Source: Bradyrhizobium algeriense (GTDB lineage: Bacteria; Pseudomonadota; Alphaproteobacteria; Rhizobiales; Xanthobacteraceae). From it: a stretch of DNA of 64,000 nt. Shown one piece after another: positions 18,580-34,222 of the stretch (its first letter is position 1; each line of letters opens with the position of its first letter). The DNA lies in NCBI RefSeq assembly GCF_036924595.1, contig NZ_JAZHRV010000001.1, positions 6,599,501 to 6,663,500 of the forward strand, in the 5' to 3' direction. The notes beneath the pieces were generated by a model. It did no database searches and had not been told where the DNA came from. It saw only the letters and a program-made list of their open reading frames with translations. The position numbers were made by a program, and so were the translations under genes.

Positions 18580-18715
18580 GATCTGTCCTTTTGGGAAGCG
18601 GAAAAGGCGTCTTTTAGACGGTGAGCCGGATCGATAAAAGCGGCTTGGCGCAGGGTCGCCATGCGCGGGCCCACCCAAAACGGGACAGGGCCCAGCGCCC
18701 CTGCCCCGGCTACCG

Positions 18716-19909
18716 CTAGACCACCTCGCGCGCGCGCAGTTCCGCGATCGCTTTCGCGTCATAGCCGAGCGAGGCCAGCACCTCGTCGGTATGGGCGCTG
18801 AGCGCGGGCGCCATCCGATCCAGCCGGCCGCCGCCATGGGCGAGCTGAAAGCCGCTGCCGGCAAAACGCAGGCGTCCATAGGGCGTATCTATCTCCTGAA
18901 TAGCGCCGCGCGCGGCGATCTGCGGATGGTCGATGACCTCCTCGACCTTCCAGATGCTGGCGCAGGGCGCGCCCGCGGCCTCCAGGACCTTTTCCCACTC
19001 GCGCGGGTCCTTCTTCGAGAGCGCCTCCTCGATGATGGCCCGCAACGCCTTCTCGTTTTCCTGACGGGCAAACCAGTCGGCGAAGCGCGGGTCGTCCAGC
19101 GCATCGGCACGGCCGAGCGCGGTCATCAGCGCGCGGTATTGTTTCTCGCTGTTGACCGCGAGCAGCAGATAGCCCTCACCCGCCCTGAACAAATTGGCGG
19201 TGGGGCGGCGGCTCACCGCCTGGTTGCCGGAGAGCTGCTGGCGATGGCCGGCGACCGAATAGTCCGCGACCTGGCCGGACAGGAACGCCAGCGTCGCCTC
19301 CAGCATGGAGACATCGACCATTTGCCCCTTGCCGGTATGGGTGCGCTGGAACAGCGCGCTCGACACGGCAAAGGCGGCGGTGGCGCCCGACAGGACGTCG
19401 CAGACCGCAAAGCCCGCGCGCGTCGGCCCGGTCTCGGCGTGGCCGGTGATCGACATGATGCCTGAGAGGGCCTGGATCTTGCCGTCATAGCCGGCGCCCG
19501 ATCGTTCCGGGCCGGTCTGGCCAAAACCCGAAATGGCGCAATAGATCAGCCGCGGATTGACCGCCGACAGCGCGGCATAGCCGATGCCGAGCTTGTCCAT
19601 CACGCCGGGGCGGAAATTCTCCATCACAACGTCGGCTTGGGCAGCGAGTTGCTTGACGATGGCGATCGCCTCCGGCTTCTGCAAATCCAGGGTGAGGCTG
19701 CGCTTGTTGCCGTTGATGGCCTGCCAGCCCGGCGCTAGCCCGCGCTCGGCCCATTCGCGGCTCAGCGGCGTGCGGCGCATGTCCTCGCCTTCGCGCCGCT
19801 CCACCTTGATGACGTCGGCCCCGAGCAGCGCGAGCTGGTAGCTCGCATAGGGGCCGGCCAGCACCTGCGTGAAGTCGAGAATCTTCACGCCTTCGAACGG
19901 TCGGGTCAC
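18716..19909 (-). CDS. CaiB/BaiF family CoA-transferase (family III)
   Basis: 397 residues. The N-terminus [20 protein letters not shown], then [10 protein letters not shown] and [17 protein letters not shown], are signature stretches of family III CoA-transferases such as formyl-CoA, carnitine-CoA and succinyl-CoA:dicarboxylate transferases. The catalytic Asp is expected in the [12 protein letters not shown] region. It moves CoA between acids. The substrate is not set by sequence alone. It lies about 180 bases downstream of the GrdB-like gene on the same strand, across a long palindrome. Confidence 0.9.
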
Positions 19910-19938
19910 GTGGACGTCCTCCTGCGTATTTCTTTTTT

Positions 19939-20082
19939 CTCCCCTTCTCCCCTTGTGGGAGAAGGTGGCGCGAAGCGACGGATGAGGGGTTCTCTCCGCG
20001 CATTCGGTGTTCGGGGAGAGAACCCCTCACCCGTCGCCTCACTTCGTGAGGCGCCACCCTCTCCCACAAGGGGAGAGGGGAA
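19939..20082. repeat. Long imperfect inverted repeat between two minus-strand genes
   Basis: The left arm (about 19939-19998, starting CTCCCCTTCTCCCCTTGTGG) is the near-complement of the right arm (about 20012-20082, ending CCACAAGGGGAGAGGGGA). GAGGGGTTCTCTCC and GGGGAGAGAACCCCTC form the inner stem around a loop of about 13 bases. The right arm has a few extra bases (CTCACTTCGTGAG), itself a small hairpin. This is a dispersed rhizobial-type palindromic repeat. In RNA it would fold into a hairpin of roughly 60 bp that could separate expression of the flanking genes. Confidence 0.85.
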
Positions 20083-20087
20083 GAGCA

Positions 20088-21017
20088 TCACGCCGCGCGG
20101 TTGCCGCGCGCGATCTCTTTCTGCTTGTCGAACTCGGCCCGGCGCCGCGCCAGTTCTTCCGGGCTCATCTGCGCGATGTTGTTGTAGTCGAGCTTCCAGG
20201 AGGCATCCTCGCTCCAGCGCAGCGGCGACTGCATCGTGGTGCGCGCGCCCGGCGCAGACTCCAGCAGGCGCAGCGCCAGCTCGAGCGTCAGCGCCTGCGA
20301 CTCCACATCATGCGGCTTGCCGGCGGAGTTGCCGAGCGGGAAATCCGAAAACAGGAAGCGCGGCGCGGCGGCATGTTCGACGATGTCCTTGGCGCAACCC
20401 ATGACGACGGTGGCGATGCCATTGGCTTCGAGATGACGCGCCACCAAGGCGGACGTCTGGTGGCAGACCGGGCAGTTCGGGACGATCACGGCGACGTCGA
20501 CCTTGTCGGCCTGGCAGCGGGCGAGAATATCCGGCGCGTCGACATCGATGGTGACGCGGTGGCTGCGGTTGGTCGGCGCACCGAAGAAGCGCGGCGCGAC
20601 CTCGCCGATACGTCCCGCGGCGGCAGCTTTGAGGAGCTGCGGCAACGGAAACCAGGTGCCGCTATCGGTGGCCGTGGTGTGCTTGCGGTCGTAGCCGATG
20701 TGCGAGATCCGCAAATCGTGCTGCTTGGCGGTGTCGCCGTCGTAGACCTGGTAGAACTTGGCGCTGCCGTTGTAGGCCGCTCCGGGCCCCTGATCGCCCT
20801 TGGTGGGATCATACTTCGCGGCTGTCGTGATGATGGTGACGCGCGATTTCGCCAGCGGCTTTTTCAGCGGCTGGAACGGCGCGTCGACATAATGCGCCCA
20901 GCGATAGGGCGTGGTGTAGCCGATCGCGGCGTAATAGTCGCGGGTCCGCTGCATATAGGGGACCGGGGAATCATAGTCGGGCGCGAAGCCGAGCTGGTCG
21001 TCGAGGGGGCCGGACAT
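20088..21017 (-). CDS. Glycine/sarcosine/betaine reductase selenoprotein B-like protein, Cys variant
   Basis: 309 residues. The overall pattern (SRVTIITTAAKYDPTKGDQG, LRISHIGYDRKHTT) matches the GrdB-like family. Genuine GrdB of anaerobes has a U-x-x-C-x-x-T motif; here VPNCPVCHQTS gives C-x-x-C-x-x-T, a cysteine replacement. The organism is likely aerobic and no GrdA or GrdC partner is nearby, so a classical glycine reductase is improbable. A redox or C-S/C-N bond chemistry role is possible. AAGGAG lies 8 bases before the ATG at 21017. The LysR gene is directly upstream and a CoA-transferase gene downstream, all in the same direction. Confidence 0.75.
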   Translation of the reverse strand: MSGPLDDQLGFAPDYDSPVPYMQRTRDYYAAIGYTTPYRWAHYVDAPFQPLKKPLAKSRVTIITTAAKYDPTKGDQGPGAAYNGSAKFYQVYDGDTAKQHDLRISHIGYDRKHTTATDSGTWFPLPQLLKAAAAGRIGEVAPRFFGAPTNRSHRVTIDVDAPDILARCQADKVDVAVIVPNCPVCHQTSALVARHLEANGIATVVMGCAKDIVEHAAAPRFLFSDFPLGNSAGKPHDVESQALTLELALRLLESAPGARTTMQSPLRWSEDASWKLDYNNIAQMSPEELARRRAEFDKQKEIARGNRAA

Positions 21018-21110
21018 TGTTGTGTCTCCTTGCGTTTCCACCGGGCCGTCACACGGCCTTTGCCCTGAGGCTAATGATACTCCGTTCATTCCTCAACTGC
21101 GGATATTGCA

Positions 21111-22001
21111 TCAGACCTGCGCAGGATCGCGCCTCCGGGCGCGTTGCCTGGTCAGTAGATCGCGCAGCGCCTGCACCTTTGGCGAATCGGCTCCCTTCCG
21201 CCAGATCAGGTAGGTATCGGCGCGATTCTCGCCCGGCGGCAGGCGATGGACCTTCAGCCGCCGGCTCTCCGGAAATGTCGTCAGCACGCTTCTTGGCAGC
21301 AGCGCGACGCCCATGCCGGCGACGACACATCCGAGCATGGCGTGATAGGAGCCCAGTTCGATGGTGCGTTCCGGCATTTGACCGCGTAGCGCATACCAAT
21401 CCTCCAATCGCTTGCGGTGCGGGCAGCCGTGCTCGAACGCGATGATGGTGCGCGGAAAGTAGGCGTTCTTGCCCTTGCCAATCGCCGGCGTGCCGGCGGC
21501 GGAAACGATGACGGGCTCTTCCTCGAACACCGCCACCTTCTCGAACAGCGCGTCCGCAACCGGCAAGGTCACCAGCGCGGCATCGAGTTCACGGGCCAGC
21601 AGCGCCTTTGAAAGCGCCGGCGGATTCCCGGTGCGAAGTTCGAAGGCCACGTCCGGATAAAGCCGATGATACTCGTTCACCGGTCCGGGCAGGCGGACGG
21701 CGGCGGTGCTCTCCATTGCGCCCAGGCGGAAAACACCGCGCGGCCGCGGATCCTGCACCGCATTGCGCGCCTCTTCGGCCAGCGCAAGGAGCCGGTCCGC
21801 ATAGTCGAGCAATATTTGCCCGGCCGGCGACAGATGCAGGCGCTTTCCTTCGCGAATGAACAGTGAAACGCCGATATCTTCCTCAAGCTGGCGGATGCGC
21901 GTCGTCACATTGGACTGAACGCGATACAGCCGCTGCGCGGCCCTGGTCACGCTGCCTTCGCGGACCACGGCACTGAATATCTTCAAATCGGACAGGTCCA
22001 T
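21111..22001 (-). CDS. LysR family transcriptional regulator
   Basis: 296 residues. The N-terminal winged helix (MDLSDLKIFSAVVREGSVTR, then AAQRLYRVQSNVTTRIRQLE) is a textbook LysR HTH, followed by a two-subdomain periplasmic-binding-like effector domain. It lies upstream of and co-directional with the GrdB-like gene, 93 bases away, and may control that gene and the CoA-transferase, or the divergent small genes at 22121. The effector is unknown. Confidence 0.92.
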   Translation of the reverse strand: MDLSDLKIFSAVVREGSVTRAAQRLYRVQSNVTTRIRQLEEDIGVSLFIREGKRLHLSPAGQILLDYADRLLALAEEARNAVQDPRPRGVFRLGAMESTAAVRLPGPVNEYHRLYPDVAFELRTGNPPALSKALLARELDAALVTLPVADALFEKVAVFEEEPVIVSAAGTPAIGKGKNAYFPRTIIAFEHGCPHRKRLEDWYALRGQMPERTIELGSYHAMLGCVVAGMGVALLPRSVLTTFPESRRLKVHRLPPGENRADTYLIWRKGADSPKVQALRDLLTRQRARRRDPAQV

Positions 22002-22003
22002 CT

Positions 22004-22018
22004 ATCTCTCATGGAGAT
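22004..22018. promoter_or_regulatory. Possible LysR-type palindrome upstream of the LysR gene
   Basis: ATCTCTCATGGAGAT is a perfect ATCTC-N5-GAGAT palindrome of T-N11-A form, located 2 bases before the LysR start in an AT-rich divergent region (22004-22070). Its closeness to the start codon means it may instead simply contain the ribosome-binding site. Confidence 0.3.
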
Positions 22019-22120
22019 CATATTTATCATTATAATTCATTTTATGTGATTATATCTGCAGCGTAAAGCCATCGCATTGCGGCGCTTCGAGGAGCGCGGG
22101 CACGAACGGTGGGGGCCAAG

Positions 22121-22345
22121 ATGCAGATGAGAAACCGGACCGAGGCCGGCGTCACCGAAATCCAGCTGAAGTCGCCTGCTGGTTATGCCGCAATGAAGGA
22201 AAAGCTCATTCGGGAAGCGCGGGTCGCGCAGGCTGCAGCTGTTCGAGCGGCGTTTGCCGGGTTGATCGCAGCGGTCGTCGCCTTCGCAACGCGGCTGAGC
22301 CATCCGCCATGCCTGCCGCCGCCTGAACCTGAACACGGAGATTGA
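22121..22345 (+). CDS. Hypothetical small protein with one membrane segment
   Basis: 74 residues. A charged N-terminal half (RTEAGVTEIQLKSPAGYAAM) precedes a hydrophobic stretch AAFAGLIAAVVAFATRL and a proline-rich end. No family is recognised. It is divergent from the LysR gene and its stop lies 2 bases before the DUF1330 start, so the two probably share a transcript. An in-frame ATG at 22109 is an alternative start. Confidence 0.45.
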   Translation: MQMRNRTEAGVTEIQLKSPAGYAAMKEKLIREARVAQAAAVRAAFAGLIAAVVAFATRLSHPPCLPPPEPEHGD

Positions 22346-22347
22346 TC

Positions 22348-22635
22348 ATGCCCAAAGCCTACTGGATCGTGCGCGTCAGCGTTCGGCAGCCCGAACGCTA
22401 CCCGGACTACCTCGCCGCGGCGCGACCGGCCTTCGAGAAATTCGGAGCGAAGTTCATCGTGCGCGGCGGCCCATTCGAACTCATGGAAGGCGATGCGCGC
22501 GATCGTAACGTCGTCGTGGAGTTCGCCGATCGCGAAACGGCGATGGCCTGCTACCGGAGCGCCGAATATCAGAAAGCGAGAACGATCCGCCAGCAATATG
22601 CGGATGCCGACTTCATCATCGTCGAAGGCGCTTGA
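22348..22635 (+). CDS. DUF1330 domain-containing protein
   Basis: 95 residues. The segments KAYWIVRVSVRQPERYPDYL and MACYRSAEYQKARTIRQQYA with DFIIVEG are the usual DUF1330 pattern, a small dimeric alpha/beta-barrel (ferredoxin-like) fold related to antibiotic-biosynthesis monooxygenases. Function is unknown. CACGGAGATTGATC precedes the ATG. It is the last gene before the left copy of the 626-bp antiporter repeat. Confidence 0.85.
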   Translation: MPKAYWIVRVSVRQPERYPDYLAAARPAFEKFGAKFIVRGGPFELMEGDARDRNVVVEFADRETAMACYRSAEYQKARTIRQQYADADFIIVEGA

Positions 22636-22666
22636 TGAAGGTCGGCAGCGCTATGCGACGGTGCGC

Positions 22667-23296
22667 TCAAACCCCCGCCACCGACGACCAGATATCGGCC
22701 AGCTTGCGCCTGAACGCCTGCCGGCGCGTCAGGGGCACGACCTGCTCCTCATCCTCGGGCAGCCGCAGGCCGACCACGTTGACCCGCCCGCCGCTGATGC
22801 TGCGTGCGACCAGCACAATGGGATCCAGCACAAGCTCGGCGCCTTCCTTGGGCGCATGGTCGAGATGAATGTCGAAGTAATCCGCCAGCGTCAGCTTCGC
22901 CTGCTCTTCGCCTGTGGACACGCCGTAGATCTCGGCCAGCTCGCCGAGCGTGTGCTCGCCCGAGACCATGAAATCACCGAGCAGATGCGGGTCGGGCGCC
23001 GAGCTCGGCGCCATGTCGACGAAGAAGCGATCCAGCGCCTCGGCTTTTTCCGGCGGCGCCAGCAGATAGAGGTAGTCGCCGGCCGCGACCGGATCGGCTT
23101 CGACAGGCGAGAGGATGCGCTCGTCGCGGATCACCAGCGTCGGCTTCGACCAGGATGGCAGCAGGCCACGCCGGAAGTAGAGACTCTTCGGCCGTACCGG
23201 ATAGCCGACCAGTTGCTGTTCGAGCTGGCCCGGCAGATCGAGCTCGACGCGCCGCGGACCGCGGTCGACGCGTGGCAGCGCCACATGCAGCCACCG
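22667..23296 (-). pseudogene. 3' fragment of a CPA-type antiporter gene (duplicate of 28719-29348)
   Basis: This fragment encodes only the last 205 or so residues of the antiporter that is intact at 28719-30512: the junction after the last membrane helix, the TrkA-C-like part (LTLADYFDIHLDHAPKEGAE) and the CorC/HlyC-like end (LADIWSSVAGV). It differs from the intact copy at only three residues (EQVVP for EKVAP, and STGEE for SAGEE). It has no membrane domain and no evident start signal, so it is probably not functional as a transporter. The reading frame stays open, showing recent origin or conservation. Confidence 0.85.
22671..23296. repeat. Left copy of a 626-bp direct repeat
   Basis: It aligns without gaps to 28723-29348, an offset of 6052 bp throughout. 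By eye about 25 of 626 bases differ, most of them in the first 330 bases (near the gene's stop codon); the remainder is almost identical. Similarity stops abruptly at CCACATGCAGCCACCG on the right and at ACCCCCGCCACCG on the left. Confidence 0.9.
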
Positions 23297-23723
23297 GAAT
23301 TACGGTGACACCCATTAGCCGGCCGGTCGTCAAGATGCAGAGAATTTTTTTTTGGCAGCGGCAGCTGCCAACATCTTTGATTGGTCGCTTTCAGCTACTG
23401 TGCTCGTACCGCGCCCGTTTCTTCGGTTGATGGCTACGTCCGCATTGCGGATCGCGCCAGACACCCATCGGGATCAAGCATCGGCCCGAGTGAGGCCTGC
23501 GCCCTGGCGGCATAGCCGCCCCAGAAGAACGTTGGTACCGTCCCGTATCCAAAAGAGTTTCGCAGAACTGTGGTTGCCGGCAGGCCGGCGCCAATCTCCG
23601 GATGGCTTACGGTGCGGGCGATCCGCTGTCACCGCAACTGGTGACGGCGATCCGGCGTCCAATTCAGTGCAGCTGGTTGCAGCCCCAGTCACCGTACGTG
23701 GCTCTCCGGATCGTCGTCGTCCT
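23297..23723 (-). ncRNA. Non-coding 3' flank of the IS110-type transposase, candidate bridge-RNA region
   Basis: About 427 bases without a convincing gene lie between the repeat end and the transposase stop. In IS110-family elements the non-coding end encodes a structured bridge RNA that pairs with target and donor DNA; in the IS1111 group it lies downstream of the transposase, as here. Several GC-rich inverted segments occur (GCGGCTATGCCGC at about 23511-23523 read on the minus strand; GTGACGG/CCGTCAC-like parts near 23640). The RNA is inferred from family knowledge; its ends cannot be set. Confidence 0.35.
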
Positions 23724-24840
23724 TCAGGCAAAGCAGCGCGTTACATCGAACGGCTTGCCCTCCTTCAGGATGTGGTAGCAGGCGCGCGCCAGCTTGTGTG
23801 CCAACGCCTTGGTGGCAACAATGTTGTTGGTCTTGGCCTTTTTGCGCTCATGGAAACGCTTGGCCTCGGGGCAAAAACGCCTGGCAAAATTCGCCGCCTC
23901 GACGAAGGCCCAGGCGAGATATTTGTTGCCGTTCTTGACGTTGCCTTCGCCTTTCTTCTTGCGATTGCTGGTGTGCACGCTGTCGACGCAGCGCGCGTAT
24001 GACGCAAAGTTGCCGACCTCGGCGAACCGATCGATCGGGCCGGTTTCCAGAGCAATGACCGTGGCAAGCGTCTGGCCGATGCCCGGCACGGTGGTCAACA
24101 AGGCGTATTGCGGACGCGGCTTGACGCGTTCTTGCAGGCGCTTCTCCAGAAGCTCGATCTGTGACTGCAGTGTCGCGATAACAGCAACGTTGGCCTTGAT
24201 TGCCAAGCCTACATCCGCCGCCAGGGGCAGGCTGTCGATCGTGTCGTCGGTCAGCCGCTTGATCTGATTGCTGGTCATCCGCCCGCCGAGCTGCCGGGCC
24301 ATGATGTTCTCGACCGCGAGGACACGTGTCGTGCATGACTGCACCAGCTGCATGCGCTTGCGCGCCAGGTCACGCACTACTCGGTGCTCCCTCGGCAAGA
24401 TCGTACCGGTCGGCAGGATGCCCAGTCGCAGCAGGTGCGCAAGGTGCTGCGCATCGGTCTCGTCGCCGCTGTGCTTCAGTCCTTCGTACTGCTTGATCGC
24501 CGCCGTGTTGGCGAGGTGCACGTGGAGGCCGGCGTCCTGCAATCCGTCGACCAGCCAATACCAGTTGTAGGTCGACTCGACCACCACGCCGGCCAATTCG
24601 TCTTGCCACCGGGCCAGAAAGCCCGTGATCTTCCCGGTGTCGTTGGGCAGGCGCTTCTGCGCAACAGCCCGATCACCATCGTCGATAACAGCGACAACGC
24701 TGTTGTTGGAATGCAGATCAATTCCGCTGTACATCATCTTCGCCTCCTCGTGGCCAAAAGTGATTCGATGACTTCGAACTCACTTTAGCTCCACCGCCTT
24801 CTTGGTCACGAAGGCCGGCTAGATGATCTTCAGTGCAGTT
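23300..24840 (-). mobile_element. IS110-family insertion sequence (boundaries approximate)
   Basis: The core is the transposase at 23724-24737. A long non-coding segment lies on its 3' side and a short one on its 5' side, the layout of IS1111-type members, which total about 1.4-1.5 kb. IS110 elements often lack clear terminal inverted repeats and target duplications, and none was resolved here. The stated limits are the largest plausible extent. Confidence 0.6.
23724..24737 (-). CDS. IS110 family transposase
   Basis: 337 residues. The N-terminal DEDD (RuvC-like) domain begins YSGIDLHSNNSVVAVIDD with the first catalytic Asp, and continues through VVVESTYNWYWLVDGL and HSGDETDAQHLAHLLR. The C-terminal Transposase_20 domain has LLTTVPGIGQTLATVIALE and KKGEGNVKNGNKYLAWAFVE, where a Ser/Arg-type active site is expected. 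Length and both domains look intact, so the enzyme may be active. GAGGAGGCGAAG precedes the tandem ATG start. Recent work on this family shows RNA-guided recombination. Confidence 0.95.
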   Translation of the reverse strand: MMYSGIDLHSNNSVVAVIDDGDRAVAQKRLPNDTGKITGFLARWQDELAGVVVESTYNWYWLVDGLQDAGLHVHLANTAAIKQYEGLKHSGDETDAQHLAHLLRLGILPTGTILPREHRVVRDLARKRMQLVQSCTTRVLAVENIMARQLGGRMTSNQIKRLTDDTIDSLPLAADVGLAIKANVAVIATLQSQIELLEKRLQERVKPRPQYALLTTVPGIGQTLATVIALETGPIDRFAEVGNFASYARCVDSVHTSNRKKKGEGNVKNGNKYLAWAFVEAANFARRFCPEAKRFHERKKAKTNNIVATKALAHKLARACYHILKEGKPFDVTRCFA

Positions 24841-24923
24841 AACCGACAGATCGCGTCATTGCCGGTCCGGAAAGTCGTATAGGTAAATAGTTGAGTGCAC
24901 CGTAATTCCTGACTATAGCAGCA

Positions 24924-25160
24924 TTACGTCTTACCCTTTGGCACCAAGCGACCTTCATGAATTTCATGGCTGACGGCCTGTTTTTCGTCGGGAGGGGACA
25001 GGCGTTCCACCAACCGCGTCCCGCTCCAGAGCTCCGCGGGCTGCTGGCCCACCATCTGCTTTGCCCACACGATAGCGTTCTCGTCAGTGTCGCAGACGAA
25101 CGAGCGGGAGCTTTTGAAATGGCCGTCCGAGCCAATGAGGTAGGCGCGATATTCCGCCAC
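24924..25160 (-). CDS. Small conserved hypothetical protein
   Basis: 78 residues. It reads MAEYRAYLIGSDGHFKSSRS with CDTDENAIVWAKQMV and ELWSGTRLVERL, a compact protein type I recognise from many Bradyrhizobium genomes, always without known function. It is first in reading order after the two other small minus-strand genes at 25201 and 25370, and may be co-transcribed with them. Confidence 0.7.
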   Translation of the reverse strand: MAEYRAYLIGSDGHFKSSRSFVCDTDENAIVWAKQMVGQQPAELWSGTRLVERLSPPDEKQAVSHEIHEGRLVPKGKT

Positions 25161-25200
25161 AGTAACCTCTCTCCCAAACGAGGCCGCCGTTGCGGCCGCC

Positions 25201-25428
25201 TTACCGGACCTCTAGTTCTTTGATTGCCAGAGCCGAAAGCTGCGCCGCATCATGAACACCAGTTTGCGCGATCCTGATGATCTTCTTCGCAATCATTTCC
25301 GTTAGAGGATCGTCGCGATCCTTGACGCAGAGGGTGTGCAGCGTTTGCTCGTATGCCGCTATGATGCCGTTAACCTCTTTCGGCCCCAGCCCCAAGGAAG
25401 AGTTCTCTAATAGGCGATAAATTGCCAT
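25201..25428 (-). CDS. Small conserved hypothetical protein
   Basis: 75 residues, mostly helical: MAIYRLLENSSLGLGPKEVN, KDRDDPLTEMIAKKIIRIAQ, and ALAIKELEVR at the end. This matches a small Bradyrhizobium protein type with no assigned role. AGAGAGGATC lies 8 bases before the ATG. The start overlaps the 3' end of the upstream small gene by 59 bases. Confidence 0.7.
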   Translation of the reverse strand: MAIYRLLENSSLGLGPKEVNGIIAAYEQTLHTLCVKDRDDPLTEMIAKKIIRIAQTGVHDAAQLSALAIKELEVR

Positions 25429-25639
25429 TTCTATTTGATCCTCTCTTGGTTGCTTTGGGGGCCGAGGCCAGACACTCGATCATATGAGAAGCTGTCTCGG
25501 CTCGCCGGGCTTTACGAACCAGGAGCTCGCGCTCAAACCCCGGTGGGATATCTTGAGCCTGCCTGCGCAACAGCGTCGCCTCTTCTGCAAGGCGTTCTTT
25601 AAGGGATGTCGTTTGTTTGAAACGGCTACGCTTTGGCAT
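25370..25639 (-). CDS. Small conserved hypothetical helical protein
   Basis: 89 residues. The first 60 (MPKRSRFKQTTSLKERLAEE, LLRRQAQDIPPGFERELLVR, ETASHMIECL) match a common small rhizobial protein of unknown role. The last 25 residues overlap the next gene in another frame and look like read-through, so a frameshift may have removed an earlier stop. GGATGGAGCAGCGC precedes the ATG at 25639; an in-frame ATG at 25651 or 25705 is also possible. Confidence 0.6.
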   Translation of the reverse strand: MPKRSRFKQTTSLKERLAEEATLLRRQAQDIPPGFERELLVRKARRAETASHMIECLASAPKATKRGSNRNGNLSPIRELFLGAGAERG

Positions 25640-25910
25640 GCGCTGCTCCATCCATGCGAGGTTTGCAGGAGCGCGACTGGCGGTCTCATCAGCGATGAAA
25701 GCCACGTACCGAGCGGTGCTAGCGATATATCCGAGCGGTGATAACCAAATATGCGCGACCTTGAGAAGCGCCAGAGTTTAAACATTAACTTTCTGTCACT
25801 CCGTCCTTTCGGACATGGAGCGTGCCGGAGCGCGGCCGCGGCCCCGCCAGGCCCCGGCTAGAATTTATCGCCTTGAGGGCCATAATGGTTCTGTGTGCGG
25901 AGTCGCGGAC

Positions 25911-26108
25911 ATGCCTCTAACAGGGCCAATCCCCGAGGGCAGACCGTTCTTTTGTCCCCATTGCGGGGCATTGTATTCAGTGACGGACTCGCGGCAACCC
26001 AAAGGTGACACTGCGGCAAAATGCGTTGTATGCGCGCAAACCATGGTCGAATGGGCCTCGACGGAGAGTCGAGTTTATAAGCTCGTTCATCGGCCCGAAG
26101 ATGAGTGA
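25911..26108 (+). CDS. Small zinc-ribbon-like protein
   Basis: 65 residues. FFCPHCGALYSVT and KCVVCAQTM supply two C-x-x-C pairs about 25 residues apart, a likely zinc ribbon. The end YKLVHRPEDE matches a recurrent small Bradyrhizobium protein. The ATG at 25911 starts MPLTGPIPEGRPFF; the open frame extends upstream to 25815 without homology. Function is unknown; zinc binding is inferred from the cysteines. Confidence 0.7.
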   Translation: MPLTGPIPEGRPFFCPHCGALYSVTDSRQPKGDTAAKCVVCAQTMVEWASTESRVYKLVHRPEDE

Positions 26109-26439
26109 TCACCGCAAGCGCCCCCGACCCATCGGCAAGCTCATGCCGCCGGCAAGCACAGGTCGAGGAGACCCGGCGCGTGCTGCGGAAGGCATGCGAC
26201 GCGGCCGACCGCGCGATTGACGATCAGGTGGCGACCATGCACCGAAGCTCGAAAGCGGGCTGCCAAGGTCCTCAATAAGCGAGCCAAAGATATTCCCGCC
26301 AGTCGATGGAGCCGGACCTGCCGTCGGACAGGCAATTATCCAGTTGTGCGCGTCGCATTGCAATCCCATTCATCCCGATGCTGGTGCCTTTTCCATCGCT
26401 TCGTTGGCAACGGAATTACCCGTAAAGAGTTATGATCAT
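26101..26439. other. Degenerate stretch, possible 39-codon ORF overlapping the zinc-ribbon gene
   Basis: An ATG at 26101 overlaps the preceding gene's end and opens a 39-codon frame (MSDHRKRPRPIGKLMPPAST) to 26220. An adjacent frame continues with a plausible helical segment (QVEETRRVLRKACDAADRAI). This could be one small gene broken by a frameshift. Nothing else is recognised up to 26439. Confidence 0.3.
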
Positions 26440-26655
26440 ATGCCGACCCGTAACCCGCCGCCCACTCTGCATCCCATGAAGGATTTCGATCCTTCGGAGC
26501 CGGCGATCCTTCATGATCTGATATCAGATAGAATCATCACTTGGAGCGGCGAAGATGCTGCGGCCTTCCACCGTGCCCACATTGAAAGAGCGGACGGGAC
26601 CGTCGCCTGGAACGAATTCGTGTTCGACGGCTGGGGAAACGTACTTGGTGGTTAG
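26440..26655 (+). CDS. Hypothetical small protein
   Basis: 71 residues, acidic: MKDFDPSEPAILHDLISDRI, TWSGEDAAAFHRAHIERADG, then EFVFDGWGNVLGG. No family is recognised. The ATG at 26440 follows AAAGAGTTATGATC; an in-frame ATG at 26476 is an alternative. Its reading frame is clean and codon use resembles coding sequence. Confidence 0.4.
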   Translation: MPTRNPPPTLHPMKDFDPSEPAILHDLISDRIITWSGEDAAAFHRAHIERADGTVAWNEFVFDGWGNVLGG

Positions 26656-26910
26656 GAGATAAACGCAGCATGCGAGCGGATCCGCAGAGGCGTTTAACCT
26701 TTCAGGGATCGTTCCGAGCCCAAGCTACGTGCAATGCTTGAGTAAGACGAAGAATGCTGAGTACGGAAGATGCTGAGGACGAGAGTCTGTCCGACCGAGA
26801 AAATCCTCAGGATCGGTCCTTCGGTTAGCCGGAGACGAGCCCGACGCGCCGACCCCCCTGATGAAGAAATCCGCCCCAATGCTAGATCGCGGTTCTTTTT
26901 CGATCGGTGT

Positions 26911-28101
26911 TCAGCGATCGATCTCCCCGAACACGATGTCCAGCGAACCGATGATCGCCGACACGTCGGCCAGCAGGTGGCCGCGACTCAGGAAATCCAT
27001 TGCTTGCAGATGCGCGAAAGAGGGCGCCCGGATCTTGCACTTGTAGGGTTGGTTGGTGCCATCGGAGACGAGATAGACGCCGAATTCGCCTTTGGGCGCT
27101 TCGACAGCTGCATAAACCTCTCCGGCGGGAACACGGTGGCCTTCGGTGTACAGCTTGAAGTGCTCGATCATTGCTTCCATCGAGCGTTTCATGCCGCTGC
27201 GTCGCGGCGGCGCTATCTTGTTATCTTCTATTATCACAGGCCCCTGTCCCTCGATAGCGCGCAGCTTGTCGATGCATTGTTTCATGATGCGCACCGACTG
27301 GCGCATTTCTTCCATACGTATCAGGTAGCGATCGTAACAATCGCCGTTCTTTCCGATCGGGATATCGAAATCGAATTCAGGGTAGCATTCGTAAGGCTGC
27401 GCCCTGCGCAGGTCCCAAGCGGCGCCGGAGCCGCGCACCATGACGCCGGAAAATCCCCAGCCCCAAGCCTCCGCGAGCTTGACGACGCCAATATCGACGT
27501 TGCGCTGCTTGAAAATGCGATTGTTGGTCAGCAGGCCTTCGAGATCGTCGCAAACTTTCAGGAACGGATCGCAGAATGTCCAGATGTCATCGATCAGCTT
27601 AGTCGGCAGATCCTGATGAACCCCGCCAACGCGAAAATAGTTTGCGTGCATGCGCGCGCCCGATGCACGTTCGTAAAACACCATCAATTTCTCGCGCTCC
27701 TCGAACCCCCACAACGGCGGCGTAAGTGCGCCAACATCCATTGCCTGCGTCGTGATGTTGAGCAGATGCGAGAGCAGGCGACCAATCTCGCAATAAAGCA
27801 CCCGTATCAGTTGACCCCGTCTGGGAACGGTGATGCCAAGAAGCTTTTCGGTGGCCAGACAAAAAGCATGCTCCTGGTTCATTGGCGCAACGTAATCTAG
27901 CCGGTCGAAATAAGGCAGCGCCTGCAGGTAGGTCTTGTGCTCGATCAGCTTCTCCGTTCCGCGGTGAAGCAACCCAATATGCGGGTCGACGCGTTCGACG
28001 ACCTCACCGTCGAGCTCGAGAACAAGCCGTAGCACACCGTGGGCCGCCGGATGCTGTGGCCCGAAATTGATAGTGAAATTGCGAACGGCGGCTTGGGCCA
28101 T
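26911..28101 (-). CDS. nuoD: Orphan NADH-quinone oxidoreductase subunit D
   Basis: 396 residues, full length for NuoD (49-kDa subunit). [51 protein letters not shown] and the C-terminal [12 protein letters not shown] are all intact, including the loop His of HGV that lines the quinone site of complex I. No other nuo gene is nearby, so this is an extra copy outside a complex I operon. It lies in the segment flanked by the 626-bp repeats. It may substitute for the housekeeping subunit or be a passenger. The quinone-site motifs give no sign of decay. Confidence 0.93.
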
Positions 28102-28269
28102 AACGACCTCACATCCCAGGAACGTCTCTTGTTCTAGTGGGTTCCAGAGAATCAGCCGAAAATGTCAAACCGCCGAAGGGGTCGATTTTTGGCCACATCT
28201 GCGCGAAGAAAGTCTGACCGCGACACGGCACCGGGCAGTTTACCGGCGTGAGCGGATCGTCGTTGGAGT

Positions 28270-28282
28270 GCACTGTCAGTGC
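28270..28282. promoter_or_regulatory. Short perfect palindrome between nuoD and the XRE gene
   Basis: GCACTGTCAGTGC is a 13-base perfect palindrome with a single central base. It lies in a 227-base gap, upstream of nuoD and downstream of the XRE gene on the minus strand. A regulator site is possible; chance is not excluded. Confidence 0.25.
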
Positions 28283-28328
28283 AGTGCATTTAACTTTCAT
28301 ATTGCGTCATTGATGGGCGCGTAACTCC

Positions 28329-28619
28329 TCAGTCTGTCATCTCCAGCTCAAGCCGGGCGTCTTTCTTGGTTTTTGCTTCCGATATTTCGATACAGATTTT
28401 CTCACCCAAGGCATTGAGATAACCAAACAGACGGTCGTAGGTGTAACCGGCAAAATGCCCGCGCAAAAGTTTTGACACACCCGGTTGAGCAAGACCGAGC
28501 GGCGACGCGGCCTTGGCTTGGGTCAGGCCCTTTGATTTGATCCGAGCGGCAATGCGCGGGACAATATCCGCCTTGATGGAGTGTTCGGCAGCGTCAGGAA
28601 GACCGATATCCGCGAACAC
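28329..28619 (-). CDS. XRE-family (HigA-like) antitoxin, apparently 5'-truncated
   Basis: 96 residues from a GTG at 28619. The HTH region is IAARIKSKGLTQAKAASPLG with LAQPGVSKLLRGHFAGYTYD, typical of the HigA-like XRE antitoxins whose usual N-terminus ends SSGNVFADLGLP. Here the codons before the GTG read KKVRVTKSSGN in frame, so the natural start probably lay about 13 codons upstream, where an ATT (28656-28658) sits behind GGAGAGGCA. Either ATT is used or an ATG has been lost. The expected toxin gene upstream is cut off at the 626-bp repeat. Confidence 0.7.
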   Translation of the reverse strand: MFADIGLPDAAEHSIKADIVPRIAARIKSKGLTQAKAASPLGLAQPGVSKLLRGHFAGYTYDRLFGYLNALGEKICIEISEAKTKKDARLELEMTD

Positions 28620-28722
28620 GTTGCCGCTGCTCTTTGTGACTCTGACTTTCTTTTTAATTGCCTCTCCGCCAAGCTCTCGGCTTCTTTTAATCTCCGCTTG
28701 ATCTTCTCGATTTCGGTTTCAC
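28620..28722 (-). pseudogene. Possible C-terminal remnant of the partner RelE/HigB toxin
   Basis: In one minus-strand frame this stretch encodes ETEIEKIKRRLKEAESLAER, which resembles the basic helical C-terminus of HigB/Gp49-type toxins that precede such antitoxins. Similarity ends at the junction with the antiporter repeat (28723). The frame has no stop at the expected place, so the assignment is weak. Confidence 0.25.
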
Positions 28723-30512
28723 ACCCCCGCCACCGACGACCAGATATCGGCCAGCTTGCGCCTGAACGCCTGCCGGCGCGTCAGGGGCGCGACTTTCTCC
28801 TCATCCTCGGGCAGCCGAAGGCCGACCACGTTGACCCGGCCGCCGCTGATGCTGCGCGCGACCAGCACGATGGGGTCCAGCACTAGCTCGGCGCCTTCCT
28901 TGGGCGCATGGTCGAGATGAATGTCGAAATAATCGGCCAGCGTCAGCTTCGCCTGCTCCTCCCCGGCCGACACGCCGTAGATCTCGGCCAGTTCGCCGAG
29001 CGTGTGTTCGCCCGATACCATGAAGTCGCCGAGCAGATGCGGGTCGGGCGCCGAGCTCGGCGCCATGTCGACGAAGAAGCGATCCAGCGCCTCGGCTTTT
29101 TCCGGCGGCGCCAGCAGATAGAGGTAGTCGCCGGCCGCGACCGGATCGGCCTCGACAGGCGAGAGGATCCGCTCGTCGCGGATCACCAGCGTCGGCTTCG
29201 ACCAGGATGGCAGCAGGCCGCGGCGGAAGTAGAGACTCTTCGGCCGTACCGGATAGCCGACCAGTTGCTGTTCGAGCTGGCCCGGCAGATCGAGCTCGAC
29301 GCGCCGCGGACCGCGGTCGACGCGTGGCAGCGCCACATGCAGCCACCGCGCCGCCGGCGCCAGCGTCCAACCCTGCAGCAGCAGCGAGATGACGACCACG
29401 ACAAAGGCGACGTCGAAATAGAGATAGGCTTTCGACAGCCCGACCAGCATCGGGATCGAGGCGAGAAAGATCGCGACCGCACCGCGCAGGCCGGTCCAGG
29501 CGATGAAGACCTTTTCGCGCCAGTTGAACCGGAATGGCATGAGGCACAGCAGCACCGCGAGCGGCCGCGCCACCAGCATCAGCACCAGCGCCACGACCAC
29601 CGAGGGACCCACGCTGTCCAGAAGGCGCTGCGGCGATGCCAGCAGGCCCAGCAGAACGAACATCACGATCTGCGCCAGCCAGGTCGCGGCGTCGAGAAAC
29701 GTCACCACCGAATTATGCGCGCGCGTCGGCCGGTTGCCGATGATGATGCCGGCGAGATAGACCGCGAGAAATCCGGAGGCGTGCGAGATCTGCGCCACGC
29801 CGAAGATCACGAGCGCAGCGGTCGTGACAAAGGGCGCATGCAGGCCTTGCGGCAGCGCCATGCGATTGAGCGCCACCACCACCAGGCGGCCACCGATCAC
29901 GCCGAGGACGGCGCCGAGCACGCCTTCGCGCGCGAGCTCCAGCACAACATGCGCGGGCGAGCTCTCGCCGAGTGAAATGAATTCGACCAGCATCAGGGTG
30001 AGAAAGATCGCGAACGGGTCGTTGGTGCCGGATTCGGCTTCCAGGGTTGCGCCGACGCGGGGACGCAGGCGCAGGCCCTGGGTGTGAACGAGCAGGAACA
30101 CCGCCGCGGCATCGGTCGATGCCACCACGGCGCCGACCAGCAGCGCCTCGGTCCAGTTCAGATCGAGCGCATATTTGGCGGCCGGCGCGGCAACCAGCGC
30201 GGTGACCAGCACGCCGACGGTTGCCAGCACCATCGATGGCGCCAGCACAGTACGGATGCTTTGAAACCTGGTTCGCAGACCGCCGTCGAACAGGATCAGC
30301 GCCAGCGCCACCGATCCCACCAGATAGGTGGTGCGGACGTCATCGAAGGAGAGCTGGCCCGGCCCGGCATCGCCGGCCAGCATGCCGATCAGGAGGAACA
30401 CCAGCAGCAGCGGCGCCCCGAAGCGCAGCGCGAGCAGGCTCGACAGGATGCCCGCCATCACCAGAACAGCGCCCAGAAAGATGGCGATGCTGACCGAGTC
30501 GAGAGAAGCCAT
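28719..30512 (-). CDS. CPA-type potassium/proton (or sodium/proton) antiporter, NhaP2-like
   Basis: 597 residues. About 12 membrane helices (from LDSVSIAIFLGAVLVMAGIL) carry the CPA1 signature region VGAVVASTDAAAVFLL with the ion-binding Asp. C-terminal cytosolic domains follow: a TrkA-C/RCK-like part with GDYLYLLAPPEKAEALDRFF, and a CorC/HlyC-like part to the end. This arrangement matches NhaP2/CvrA, which exports potassium against protons. The start at 30512 has GGAG 6 bases upstream and begins at the first helix. Its last 626 bases are duplicated at 22671-23296, and the stop codon lies just beyond the repeat edge. Confidence 0.92.
   Translation of the reverse strand: MASLDSVSIAIFLGAVLVMAGILSSLLALRFGAPLLLVFLLIGMLAGDAGPGQLSFDDVRTTYLVGSVALALILFDGGLRTRFQSIRTVLAPSMVLATVGVLVTALVAAPAAKYALDLNWTEALLVGAVVASTDAAAVFLLVHTQGLRLRPRVGATLEAESGTNDPFAIFLTLMLVEFISLGESSPAHVVLELAREGVLGAVLGVIGGRLVVVALNRMALPQGLHAPFVTTAALVIFGVAQISHASGFLAVYLAGIIIGNRPTRAHNSVVTFLDAATWLAQIVMFVLLGLLASPQRLLDSVGPSVVVALVLMLVARPLAVLLCLMPFRFNWREKVFIAWTGLRGAVAIFLASIPMLVGLSKAYLYFDVAFVVVVISLLLQGWTLAPAARWLHVALPRVDRGPRRVELDLPGQLEQQLVGYPVRPKSLYFRRGLLPSWSKPTLVIRDERILSPVEADPVAAGDYLYLLAPPEKAEALDRFFVDMAPSSAPDPHLLGDFMVSGEHTLGELAEIYGVSAGEEQAKLTLADYFDIHLDHAPKEGAELVLDPIVLVARSISGGRVNVVGLRLPEDEEKVAPLTRRQAFRRKLADIWSSVAGV
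28723..29348. repeat. Right copy of the 626-bp direct repeat
   Basis: This is the 3' third of the intact antiporter gene. It matches 22671-23296 without gaps. Recombination between the two copies would remove 6052 bp as a circle and leave an intact antiporter gene next to the DUF1330 gene. Confidence 0.9.
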
Positions 30513-30750
30513 GAATCTCCGCAGTAACCTCAACAATCCTGGCAAATACTTGCAATTGCATCCTTATCGTTGCCACAGTTGAACGCCAACCCATTTCTGC
30601 GTTAGTGGCAATGTGCCCGATTTTAGGGGCCTGACCTGCCCCCGCGCCTGCTGTGCCGATGGCATCCGCCCGGCGCTTATGAGAATCTGCCTGCTATTCG
30701 CGAATCAACTTTGTCCGGCGGGCCGGGCAGCCCCAAACGAGATTTGGCCG

Positions 30751-32067
30751 ATGGACCTGAAAGAGATCATCGAGTTCTTGCACGCTACCGCGCGCTCGCT
30801 CGGCGCCGAGGTCACCTCGCCCTGGTTCTATCTGCAATTTGGCCTGATCCTCACCGCCGGCGGCATTGCCTGGGCCAGCGAGGCATCCATTCGCGCCCGC
30901 GTCGACATGACCTCGCTTGCGATGCGGTGGCCGGTAGCGCTGCGCCGCTTCGCCCACGTTCTGGTCGGCAGCACCTCCACCGTCGTGTTCGCGATCCTGG
31001 TGATCGTGGAGCGCTTCGTGATGGTCCACTCGACCTGGCCGAGCCGCAGCTATTTGCTGGCGGTTTCCGCCAAGCTTGCGGTGGCCTGGCTCGTGATCCG
31101 GCTGGTGACGTCGGTCATTCGCAACGAGTTCATCGTCAGGCTGGTGTCGCTGTCGGCCTGGCTGGTGGCAGCTCTCAGTGTCATCGGCCAGCTCGAGCCG
31201 ACCCTGCAGTTGCTGGATTCGGATTCCGTCTCGATCGTTCTCGGCGGCTTGCGGCTGACGCCGCTGGTTCTGATCAAGCTCGGCGCGCTCCTGATCCTGG
31301 CGCTATGGCTGACCAACATCGCCAGCAATTTCATTGAAAGCCGGATCAACCGCTCCGCCGACCTCACCCCGTCCATTCAGGTGCTGCTGGTCAAGATGAT
31401 CCGGATGGGGCTCTTGACGGTCGCCGTCATCGTCGCGCTCGGCGCCGTCGGCATCAACCTTTCGGCGCTGGCGGTGTTTTCCGGCGCGGTCGGCGTCGGT
31501 ATCGGTATCGGCCTGCAGAAGATCGTCGCCAATTTCATCTCAGGGATCATCCTGCTGGCGGACAAGTCGGTGAAACCCGGCGATCTCGTCACCATCGGCG
31601 ACAGCTCGGGCCGGATCAGCGCGATGAAGACGCGCTACATCTCGGTCGCCGCCGGCGACGGCCGCGAGTTCCTGATCCCGAACGAGGATCTGGTGACGCA
31701 GAAGGTCGTGAACTGGACCTATACCGACAAGAACACGCTGGTGAAGGTGCTGTTCAGCACCAATTACGACGCCGATCCCCGCCTCGTCTGCAAGCTGGCG
31801 ATCGAGATCGCGGCGGCTGCCCCGCGCGCCATCAAGAACAAGCCGCCGAACTGCATCCTGACCGAATTCGCCGAGGCCGGCATGAAGTTTTCGCTGACCT
31901 TCTGGATCGCCGACCCTGATGGCATGGACAACGTAAAGAGCGAGGTGATGCTGGCGCTGTGGGACGCCTTCAAGCGCGAGGGGATCCGTGTTCCCTATCC
32001 GGTCCGCGAAATCCGCGTCCGCGGCGGTGCGCTGCCGGTGGAGCCCGTGGTGGAAGTTTCCGGCTAG
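30751..32067 (+). CDS. MscS-family mechanosensitive ion channel
   Basis: 438 residues. Four to five N-terminal membrane helices precede the pore helix. The Gly/Ala-rich TM3 is seen at SALAVFSGAVGVGIGIGLQK, followed by IVANFISGIILLADKSVKPG and a beta domain (GRISAMKTRYISVAAGDGRE, LIPNEDLVTQKVVNW). It opens on membrane tension and releases solutes after hypo-osmotic shock. The ATG at 30751 was chosen as the first start ahead of the membrane region; the open frame extends to 30613. It is divergent from the antiporter, so both neighbours serve ion and osmotic balance. Confidence 0.92.
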   Translation: MDLKEIIEFLHATARSLGAEVTSPWFYLQFGLILTAGGIAWASEASIRARVDMTSLAMRWPVALRRFAHVLVGSTSTVVFAILVIVERFVMVHSTWPSRSYLLAVSAKLAVAWLVIRLVTSVIRNEFIVRLVSLSAWLVAALSVIGQLEPTLQLLDSDSVSIVLGGLRLTPLVLIKLGALLILALWLTNIASNFIESRINRSADLTPSIQVLLVKMIRMGLLTVAVIVALGAVGINLSALAVFSGAVGVGIGIGLQKIVANFISGIILLADKSVKPGDLVTIGDSSGRISAMKTRYISVAAGDGREFLIPNEDLVTQKVVNWTYTDKNTLVKVLFSTNYDADPRLVCKLAIEIAAAAPRAIKNKPPNCILTEFAEAGMKFSLTFWIADPDGMDNVKSEVMLALWDAFKREGIRVPYPVREIRVRGGALPVEPVVEVSG

Positions 32068-32181
32068 TGCAAGTCTTTTTGGAGCTCCGGCACCTTAACC
32101 TCGACTTGCCGCAGACCGCTCCGATCACTAAATTAGACCATTAAACCAATCGTTCCCGTTCCTCCGAAGTATGACCGCCCC

Positions 32182-33006
32182 ATGAGCTATATTGAAGCGT
32201 CTGACACCTCCTTGCGAAAAACCGGCCAGATCAAACTGCATGGCGCGAGCGGGTTCGCCGGCATGCGCAAGGCGGGCGCGCTGGTCGCCAAGTGCCTCGA
32301 CGAGCTCACCGACATCGTCAAGGCGGGCGTCCCGACCTCCCGGATCGACGAATTCGTCCGCGACTTCGCCTTCAACCACGGCGCCTATCCGGCGACGCTG
32401 ATGTACCGCGGCTACCGCTATTCGACCTGCACCTCGATCAATCACGTGGTCTGCCACGGCATGCCCGGCGACCGCGCGCTGAAAGAGGGCGACATCGTCA
32501 ATATCGACGTCACCTTTATCGTCGAAGGCTGGTACGGCGATTCCAGCCGCATGTATGTGATCGGCCCGATCGCGCGCAAGGCCGAGCGGCTGATCGAAGT
32601 AACCTATGAAGCCATGATGCGCGGCATCGCCGCGGTGAAGCCCGGCGCCACCACCGGCGACATCGGCCACGCCATCCAGAGTTTCGTCGAGCCGCAGGGC
32701 ATGAGCGTGGTGCGCGATTTCTGCGGCCATGGGCTGGGACGCATGTTCCATGACGAGCCGAACATCATCCATATCGGCCGGCCCGGCGAGGGCGTGATGC
32801 TGAAGCCCGGCATGTTCTTCACCATCGAGCCGATGATCAATCTCGGCAAGCCGCATGTAAAAATCCTGTCGGACGGCTGGACCGCGGTGACGCGCGACCG
32901 TTCGCTGTCGGCACAGTTCGAGCATTCGGTCGGCGTGACCGCGACCGGCGTCGAGATCTTCACGCTGTCGCAGCGCAACGGCGAGAAGCCACTGACTCCG
33001 GCATAG
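32182..33006 (+). CDS. map: Methionine aminopeptidase, type I
   Basis: 274 residues, type Ia length. It removes the initiator Met from nascent proteins. Metal ligands are visible: Asp in NIDVTFIVEGWYGDSSRM (both Asp residues), His in CGHGLGRMFHDEP, Glu in FFTIEPM and Glu in QFEHSVGV. The substrate His is in INHVVCHGMPG. The ATG at 32182 lies in CGCCCCATGAGC, without a strong ribosome-binding site. A 39-base near copy of its first metal-site segment occurs at 36122. Confidence 0.96.
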   Translation: MSYIEASDTSLRKTGQIKLHGASGFAGMRKAGALVAKCLDELTDIVKAGVPTSRIDEFVRDFAFNHGAYPATLMYRGYRYSTCTSINHVVCHGMPGDRALKEGDIVNIDVTFIVEGWYGDSSRMYVIGPIARKAERLIEVTYEAMMRGIAAVKPGATTGDIGHAIQSFVEPQGMSVVRDFCGHGLGRMFHDEPNIIHIGRPGEGVMLKPGMFFTIEPMINLGKPHVKILSDGWTAVTRDRSLSAQFEHSVGVTATGVEIFTLSQRNGEKPLTPA

Positions 33007-33103
33007 CTGGGCTCCGGCATAATTGGGCGGAAGCCTGGTTCCAGCCTACCAACGATCCAGCCACATAACCGAATGAGTTCGCAGGCAGGGCCACGCGAGA
33101 AGC

Positions 33104-34222
33104 TCATCGCGGCTTGTTGCGCGCGGGAATCGAAACATTGGCCAGGTGCGGCGCGCCGTTCGGAAGGCTGTCGAACAAGACCACAATCTGCGCCTTGTCG
33201 CCCGTCATATCGAGAACCGTCACGCCCTCGGCCTTGCCTGTTTTCATCTCGCCGTCGACTTGCCCTGTCACCGCCGCGAGCGGCCCGATCGGCGTCACCT
33301 TGTCTTTGGCCGGATCGACGACAAAGAGCTTGAAGGGGACTTCCGGCCCATGGGCCGCGCCGGCGACGACGAGCAGACGCTTGTCGGGCAATGGCGCGAG
33401 GTCGCGGATTCCCAGCCCATCAAGATCGATCGGAACGACTTCGGGCTTGGCTTTGCTTCGCTTGTTTCCGGCCTTGAACAGGTCGGCGATATCGCCGGAT
33501 ACCAGATAAGCGGTTTTGTTCTTGCGCACAGGTCCCCGCAAGCCGAACCAGATCGTGTCGCCCTGCACCGCGACGCCTTCGATGTTCAATCCGTCAGCGG
33601 ATTCCAGATCCTTGCCGAAAAATGCCGCCGCCTTGCCGGCGCGTTTCAACAGATCCGAGACGCGATAGGTGGTCTCAACCGCTTGCGCGAAGTTTTCGCG
33701 CGCCAGCGGCCTGCCGGCGCGATCGGCCGGTTGTCCCTGCCGATCGACCCGCACCCGCGCGAGGATAAAGGAAGATAGCCGGAACTTGCCCCTGGAGCGT
33801 CCGCATCCGTGCGAACCGGCGACATAAAAATAGCGCGCGGCATACGCGACCCCTTCACCGTCCAAATCCCTGAAATCATCTGCTTTCTCGCAGGTCTCGT
33901 CCGGTGGACGTCCGAGCGTCCGTGAGTCCGGCGCGCTGCCGATCAGTGGCACAGGGTCTCCGACGACCATGCGATCGTCCTGGATCGTGGCGAACTGCGC
34001 GTTCTTGTTCTCGTCGTTGACCAGCAGGCACTTTCGCGGCGTGCCTTCCGGCAGGCAAGCCATCCCGCTGATGTCGGTCGCGGCCGCGCCTTCACTGACC
34101 GCAAAGTCACCCTGGATCGTCATTCGCTTGAGGGGGATGGACGAGGTCTGTTGCGCCTCAGAGCTGCCACCAATGCAGCCCAGCAAGCTCATGGTGACGA
34201 GGGCGAAACGTACCGAACGCAT
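33104..34222 (-). CDS. DUF3616 domain-containing exported protein
   Basis: 372 residues. A signal peptide (MRSVRFALVTMSLLGCIGGS) has a possible lipobox at LLGC, so it may be a lipoprotein. The body (GDFAVSEGAAATDISGMACL, NIEGVAVQGDTIWFGLRGPV, and a later GLGIRDLAPLPDKRLLVVAG) has the spaced beta-strand pattern of DUF3616, a beta-propeller-type family of unknown role. The ATG at 34222 follows GAGGAAAGAGAA. It is divergent from an SMP-30-type propeller gene 88 bases away. Confidence 0.8.
   Translation of the reverse strand: MRSVRFALVTMSLLGCIGGSSEAQQTSSIPLKRMTIQGDFAVSEGAAATDISGMACLPEGTPRKCLLVNDENKNAQFATIQDDRMVVGDPVPLIGSAPDSRTLGRPPDETCEKADDFRDLDGEGVAYAARYFYVAGSHGCGRSRGKFRLSSFILARVRVDRQGQPADRAGRPLARENFAQAVETTYRVSDLLKRAGKAAAFFGKDLESADGLNIEGVAVQGDTIWFGLRGPVRKNKTAYLVSGDIADLFKAGNKRSKAKPEVVPIDLDGLGIRDLAPLPDKRLLVVAGAAHGPEVPFKLFVVDPAKDKVTPIGPLAAVTGQVDGEMKTGKAEGVTVLDMTGDKAQIVVLFDSLPNGAPHLANVSIPARNKPR

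Follow-up and report, generated by a model that had tools for sequence, protein, structure and literature searches.

Two antiporter 3' ends enclose cargo at a gene-turnover hotspot of Bradyrhizobium algeriense

How does a gene come to have a second 3' end, 6 kb away from its own? The question is raised by a 64,000-nucleotide stretch of the Bradyrhizobium algeriense chromosome (GCF_036924595.1, contig NZ_JAZHRV010000001.1, positions 6,599,501 to 6,663,500; hereafter the window), in which the last part of a potassium/proton antiporter gene occurs twice. Positions 22671-23296 and 28723-29348 aligned without a gap over 626 bp at an offset of 6052, with 25 mismatches (96.0% identity), and identity ended sharply at 22670 and 23297. 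Chance is excluded as the origin of this match. The original prediction, made from the DNA letters, had described such a repeat with one copy ending a complete gene and the other stranded, and both points hold: the right copy closes a gene of 608 codons that matches NCBIfam NF003715 (potassium/proton antiporter) at 804.9 bits against a cut-off of 309, and the left copy is a 5'-truncated open reading frame (ORF) of 205 codons (Table 1). Between them lie an IS110 insertion sequence, small ORFs, an intact second nuoD and an antitoxin-like ORF.

The differences between the copies were concentrated towards the stop codon, 21 of the 25 mismatches falling between 22737 and 22976. With the stop codon included, the copies span 630 bp and have 26 base differences, by which 24 codons and three amino acids (A/T, K/Q, A/V) are altered; the reading frame is open up to the stop in both. 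Since the copies differ mostly silently, both tails were probably part of working genes until recently. In the closed chromosome (one contig, 8,102,604 bp) the two copies were the only matches among the 40 of 145 first-look candidates that were scored.

We took the corresponding region from 60 other Bradyrhizobium genomes, out of 263 others with a match, and added the window to give 61 loci; the 60 were mostly the best-scoring genomes, a non-random sample. Searches of relatives' genomes scored two candidates per genome, and per-genome match counts are not used as evidence. A conserved gene (window 20088-21089) was in reach of the antiporter at 42 loci; the other 19, some of them at contig ends, were excluded from the counts. 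At the 42 loci the distance between the two genes ranged from 33 to 8,726 bp, with a median of 1,144. Contents varied among loci, common blocks recurring in changing combinations, and the families represented were dodecin, DUF805, AHSA1, TPR, cyclase, hydrolases, LysR/DUF1330 and antitoxin-like ORFs. No integrase was found among the cargo proteins scanned with Pfam, which were hand-picked ORFs from 14 of the 41 other hotspots and the ORFs of the window, where the original prediction had likewise seen none. The space behind the antiporter is a gene-turnover hotspot without visible integrases. One hotspot, that of G191, holds a phage terminase small-subunit-like ORF (L152 12859-13191).

Empty sites for comparison, called for in the original prediction, were present among the relatives. 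G235, a different species, lacks the insert: it has one antiporter tail with the DUF1330 and LysR genes next to it, an arrangement collinear with window 21139-23296 (89.5% identity). The same pair stands behind the antiporter in G161 and G092; in G237 the antiporter and the core gene are only 48 bp apart. Because the DUF1330/LysR junction of the left copy is common to G235, and similar in G161 and G092, the left junction is likely to be old and the left copy is probably the native antiporter 3' end. If so, it is the newcomer's 3' end that closes the complete gene, a change from the original prediction. The right joint (around 28719) was found in none of 20 aligned relatives, nor in L011. G232, G191 and L011/G247 have the same antitoxin stretch but diverge in content beyond it. 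In G247/L011 the core gene has a C-terminal LysR stub next to it, which would fit a replacement of the native LysR/DUF1330 pair.

Window 24831-28312 was 98.8% identical to DNA in the same hotspot of G232, another species, while the flanks were 90-94% identical; in G232 an extra 3.9 kb lies between the shared module and that genome's own antiporter. The conspecific strain RST91 has a different G232 block in common, at 95-98%. As the cargo is more alike than the flanks, and different blocks are common to RST91 and G232, blocks appear to move between species at this hotspot. G237 and G079 also have pieces of the window's cargo, at other places in their genomes. The high identity with G232 speaks for transfer of the inter-copy segment, and the proposal that this segment came in with an antiporter 3' end of its own, slightly diverged, is supported. 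A single mobile segment, as had been envisaged, is not supported; what lies between the copies is composite, at a hotspot that holds different genes in different species.

In the window a short palindromic repeat (GGAATTACGGTGACA-GTGCA ... inverted arm) ends where the stranded tail begins. The IS110 element divides this repeat into the 14 bases that precede it and a second part that follows it; G232 has the repeat without the element. The ends of the element were set from copies in G138, G050, G230 and G222 and from the G232 empty site. Its transposase has the DEDD_Tnp_IS110 and Transposase_20 domains of the IS110/IS1111 family, and the six copies with both flanks read (window, L085, L086, L087, L089, L239) lie in TTACGGTGACA^GTGC or a near variant. 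Judged from the G232 site and these flanks, the element inserted later into the palindromic repeat, its target. We rejected IS110 as the cause of the joint, since it sits inside that target. On the route of movement, which the original prediction left open, the inner joint can now be placed: it is the tip of the palindromic repeat that IS110 afterwards entered. In its own genome the element had no match other than the window copy among the 40 of 56 candidates scored. Remnants of the same element lie in the G138 hotspot (L161 11536-12393) and in a B. lablabi hotspot (L153 5076-5148). A literature search by the IS110 target motif gave no match.

The palindromic repeat is short, bears terminal inverted repeats and is dispersed, as is a miniature inverted-repeat transposable element. 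Its half-motif had 15 matches in 90 kb of hotspot DNA (6 of 42 loci) and none in 290 kb upstream, which is mostly genes; the reversed pattern had none. The motif matched seven times in the window's own genome against none for the control. Palindromic elements of about 57-66 bp with AATTACGGTGACAGTGCA arms were seen at L113 16203-16259 and L232 1501-1566, and in G232 the far end of the module that it shares with the window carries the repeat. Further arms lie about 0.6 to 1 kb apart in L220, L228, L232, L235 and L238 among the 22 loci scanned; no autonomous parent was found, the ORFs between these arms not having been examined. A single empty-site comparison of the repeat, G232 against RST91, was not a clean indel. 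Nothing describing this locus or the repeat was found among the titles and abstract beginnings searched.

When each antiporter was compared with its own downstream stretch, an old 3' end was found stranded in 5 of the 42 hotspots: the window, G064 (B. lablabi), G092, G138 and G241. The tails measured 630 bp in the window, 172 + 45 bp in G064, 102 bp in G092 (72.5% identity), 44 bp in G138 and 93 + 55 bp in G241 (76-79%). All five are in direct orientation and reach the antiporter's last codons, the stop itself being altered in G241; the remaining self-matches listed were short (18-62 bp) and mid-gene, and many were reversed. Beyond the tail comes a dodecin gene in G064, the gene that in G061 stands directly 3' of the antiporter, and the DUF1330 gene in G092. 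The window, G064 and G092 thus share one geometry: complete gene, cargo, old tail, native neighbour. In the window, G064 and G138 the inner tail end lies at different distances from the stop (about 630, 325 and <60 nt) and 2, 1 and 7 bp, respectively, from the end of the palindromic repeat, which has the same orientation in G064 and G138 as in the window. Random placement of five boundaries put three within 8 bp in 0 of 200,000 trials.

We favour, as somewhat the better bet, a reading in which alleles were stacked by recombination in the antiporter at one end and a joint at the palindromic repeat at the other, in a hotspot fed by homologous recombination. The ancestral order would have been antiporter, DUF1330, LysR, core gene. 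DNA of a close relative, carrying its own antiporter 3' end followed by cargo (antitoxin, nuoD and small genes), would have recombined by homology within or upstream of the antiporter, presumably through RecA, and a complete gene ending in the newcomer's tail would have resulted. At its far end the cargo would have been joined at the tip of the palindromic repeat to the old 3' end, left beside DUF1330, and IS110 would have entered the repeat afterwards. One homologous crossover and one joint at the repeat would account for the structure of the window. The second joint could have formed in either of two ways: a repeat already interrupting the old gene might have offered a second homology, so that recombination repaired the gene, or the end might have been joined illegitimately at the repeat. 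A tentative extension, which we regard as doubtful, is that the dispersed repeat is a portable joint: in a repeat-interrupted antiporter, recombination with a relative whose cargo has that repeat at its far end would restore the gene, stack the cargo and leave the old tail as a dated scar. Excision by RecA between the two copies, as suggested in the original prediction, is possible.

Identity along the gene fits this reading in part. The window antiporter was 96-98% identical to that of RST91 along the gene, falling to 88.8-91.2% over its last 320 bp; identity between the window's own two copies went from 98.7-98.8% in their inner half to 91.9-94.4% in the last 320 bp. Tails may therefore be exchanged together with cargo. 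Several observations weigh against it. Averaged over every pairing among 15 close genomes, identity was also lower in the last 320 bp (86.7-88.9%, against 91.6-92.9% for the rest of the gene), so that part of the drop may reflect looser constraint. In the inner 310 bp the copies were closest to each other (distance 0.016; next RST91, 0.029-0.033), and on the tree of the whole 626-bp stretch they were sisters with a support of 0.63, which gene conversion or duplication would also give. That tree had been proposed as a check; it could be built, and neither copy could be assigned to a donor on the trees. The G232 tail was 91.7% identical to the right copy and 92.2% to the left; G232, though the best match for the cargo, is thus not the genome from which the right tail came. 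The boundary test was framed after the pattern had been seen, with fragment boundaries read by eye, and the gaps before the G092 and G241 tails held no such repeat in a search at one mismatch. A wider test for repeats at cargo block boundaries gave a result that was only suggestive, with p values of 0.12, 0.012 and 0.010 at 20, 40 and 60 bp. Finally, no repeat-interrupted antiporter turned up, although no search was aimed at such genes.

These points bear on four rival explanations. Homology-facilitated illegitimate recombination, with one end in the antiporter and the other at random, would give the same structure, the repeat and IS110 having entered the stranded fragment later; it has been proposed in print for stranded type VI genes and Rhs 3' regions (PMC5361080), and two of the five tails have no repeat nearby. 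A repeat inserted later should leave fragment on both sides, however, and only the stop-side part was detected in the window, G064 and G138, so we consider this explanation unlikely while giving it real weight. A plain tandem duplication of the antiporter 3' end within one genome, followed by divergence, would explain the sister position of the copies on the 626-bp tree and their 98.7% identity over the inner half. It does not sit with the last 320 bp, which are about 93% identical, an interspecies-level distance, nor with the separate occurrence of the two downstream contexts in other species, and we hold it to be very improbable. A recent self-duplication was rejected, since the distance between the copies over the last 320 bp (0.093) is about the same as that to G237 (0.095).

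Integration of a circular DNA by a single (Campbell) crossover, the circle carrying 626 bp of antiporter 3' end and the cargo, would yield a complete gene, then the cargo, then a copy lacking its 5' part next to the native neighbour, with copies differing as host and donor do. It is nevertheless improbable in our view: no replication, relaxase or integrase gene was found among the interval ORFs scanned (eight, seven of them scanned again), the tails of other genomes start at different places, and cargo pieces lie elsewhere in G237 and G079. Islands of the icd/e14 type integrate site-specifically in the 3' end of a protein gene and restore the gene with a tail of their own. The outcome would be the same here, a complete gene and a stranded old 3' end, but the scanned cargo held no integrase and the varying inner tail ends define no fixed attachment core. 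An integrase island was rejected on these grounds and has the slightest chance of the four. The stacking of alleles by a homologous crossover and a joint at the repeat remains our preferred reading.

Table 1. Coordinates in the window of the antiporter copies, the repeat at the joint, the cargo and the flanking genes.
Feature	Position	Strand	Remarks
Potassium/proton antiporter gene, complete, 608 amino acids	28719..30545	-	Pfam Na_H_Exchanger and CorC_HlyC
Right repeat copy, last 626-630 bp of the complete antiporter gene, read as the incoming 3' end	28723..29348	-	
Left repeat copy, stranded 5'-truncated antiporter tail, 205-codon ORF, read as native	22667..23296	-	
Palindromic repeat, left part, directly abutting the stranded fragment	23297..23310		
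IS110-family element within the palindromic repeat	23311..24832	-	Transposase ORF 23724-24737; NF033542, 184.4 bits vs 140
Palindromic repeat, remainder, ending in inverted arm GTGCACCGTAATTCC	24833..24909		
Module B, small ORFs and second nuoD	24838..28312		98.8% identical in G232
Extra nuoD, intact, 396 amino acids	26911..28101	-	
Antitoxin-like HTH_37 ORF	28329..28619	-	Homologue in L011/G247
DUF1330 gene, native neighbour of the left copy	22342..22635	+	Behind the antiporter also in G235, G161, G092
LysR-type regulator, native neighbour	21111..22001	-	
Conserved gene bounding the hotspot	20088..21089	-	Weak, below-cutoff PrdB/selenoprotein-B-type similarity

The contents of the interval were largely those named in the original prediction (IS110, small genes, an orphan nuoD and a supposed toxin-antitoxin remnant); the second nuoD is intact, and the remnant is an antitoxin-like HTH_37 ORF. 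Another full nuoD (89% amino acid identity) and broken nuoD pieces near 1.41 and 1.44 Mb lie in the same genome, so that nuoD copies seem to travel in it. In L011 (10899-11526) a small ORF, absent from the window, stands beside the antitoxin homologue, between it and the antiporter. The window contains no transfer RNA gene, and there was no Rfam match within 18000-34000.

Hotspots in which no mobile element is recognizable and the core genes that flank them recombine have been described (Oliveira et al., 2017; PMC5635113). The locus studied here resembles them, as far as that account goes, in its variable cargo between the same conserved genes, in the lack of an integrase in the cargo scanned and in exchange apparently via the flanking gene; it differs in having gained cargo and kept a stranded piece of the flanking gene. 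For integrase-free hotspots the mechanism has so far been deduced for the most part from statistics of recombination in the flanking genes. Stranded tails offer a readable, orientation-marked record of cargo exchange at such sites, one that can be searched for in any genus, and here a short repeat is a possible second joint. The IS1111/IS110 elements are known for specific target sites, some of them in palindromic or terminal repeats (PMC11187229), and the element in the window agrees with them in its DEDD/Transposase_20 transposase and in the placing of the examined copies in one motif or a near variant. Homology-facilitated illegitimate recombination was proposed by Kirchberger et al. for orphan arrays, and the same idea is cited there for Rhs 3' regions (PMC5361080). 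That source portrays type VI effector loci and Rhs 3' regions in similar terms: new cargo lies behind a constant upstream part, and the old downstream part is displaced. In contrast to these, the gene here is a housekeeping antiporter, the tails encode nearly the same protein, a palindromic repeat stands at the joint in three of five cases, and the interval's matches include no effector family of the Rhs or type VI kind, only the antiporter and miscellaneous genes. The locus is best read as a housekeeping gene that follows the displacement logic of Rhs C-terminal regions, the joint here lying at a repeat.
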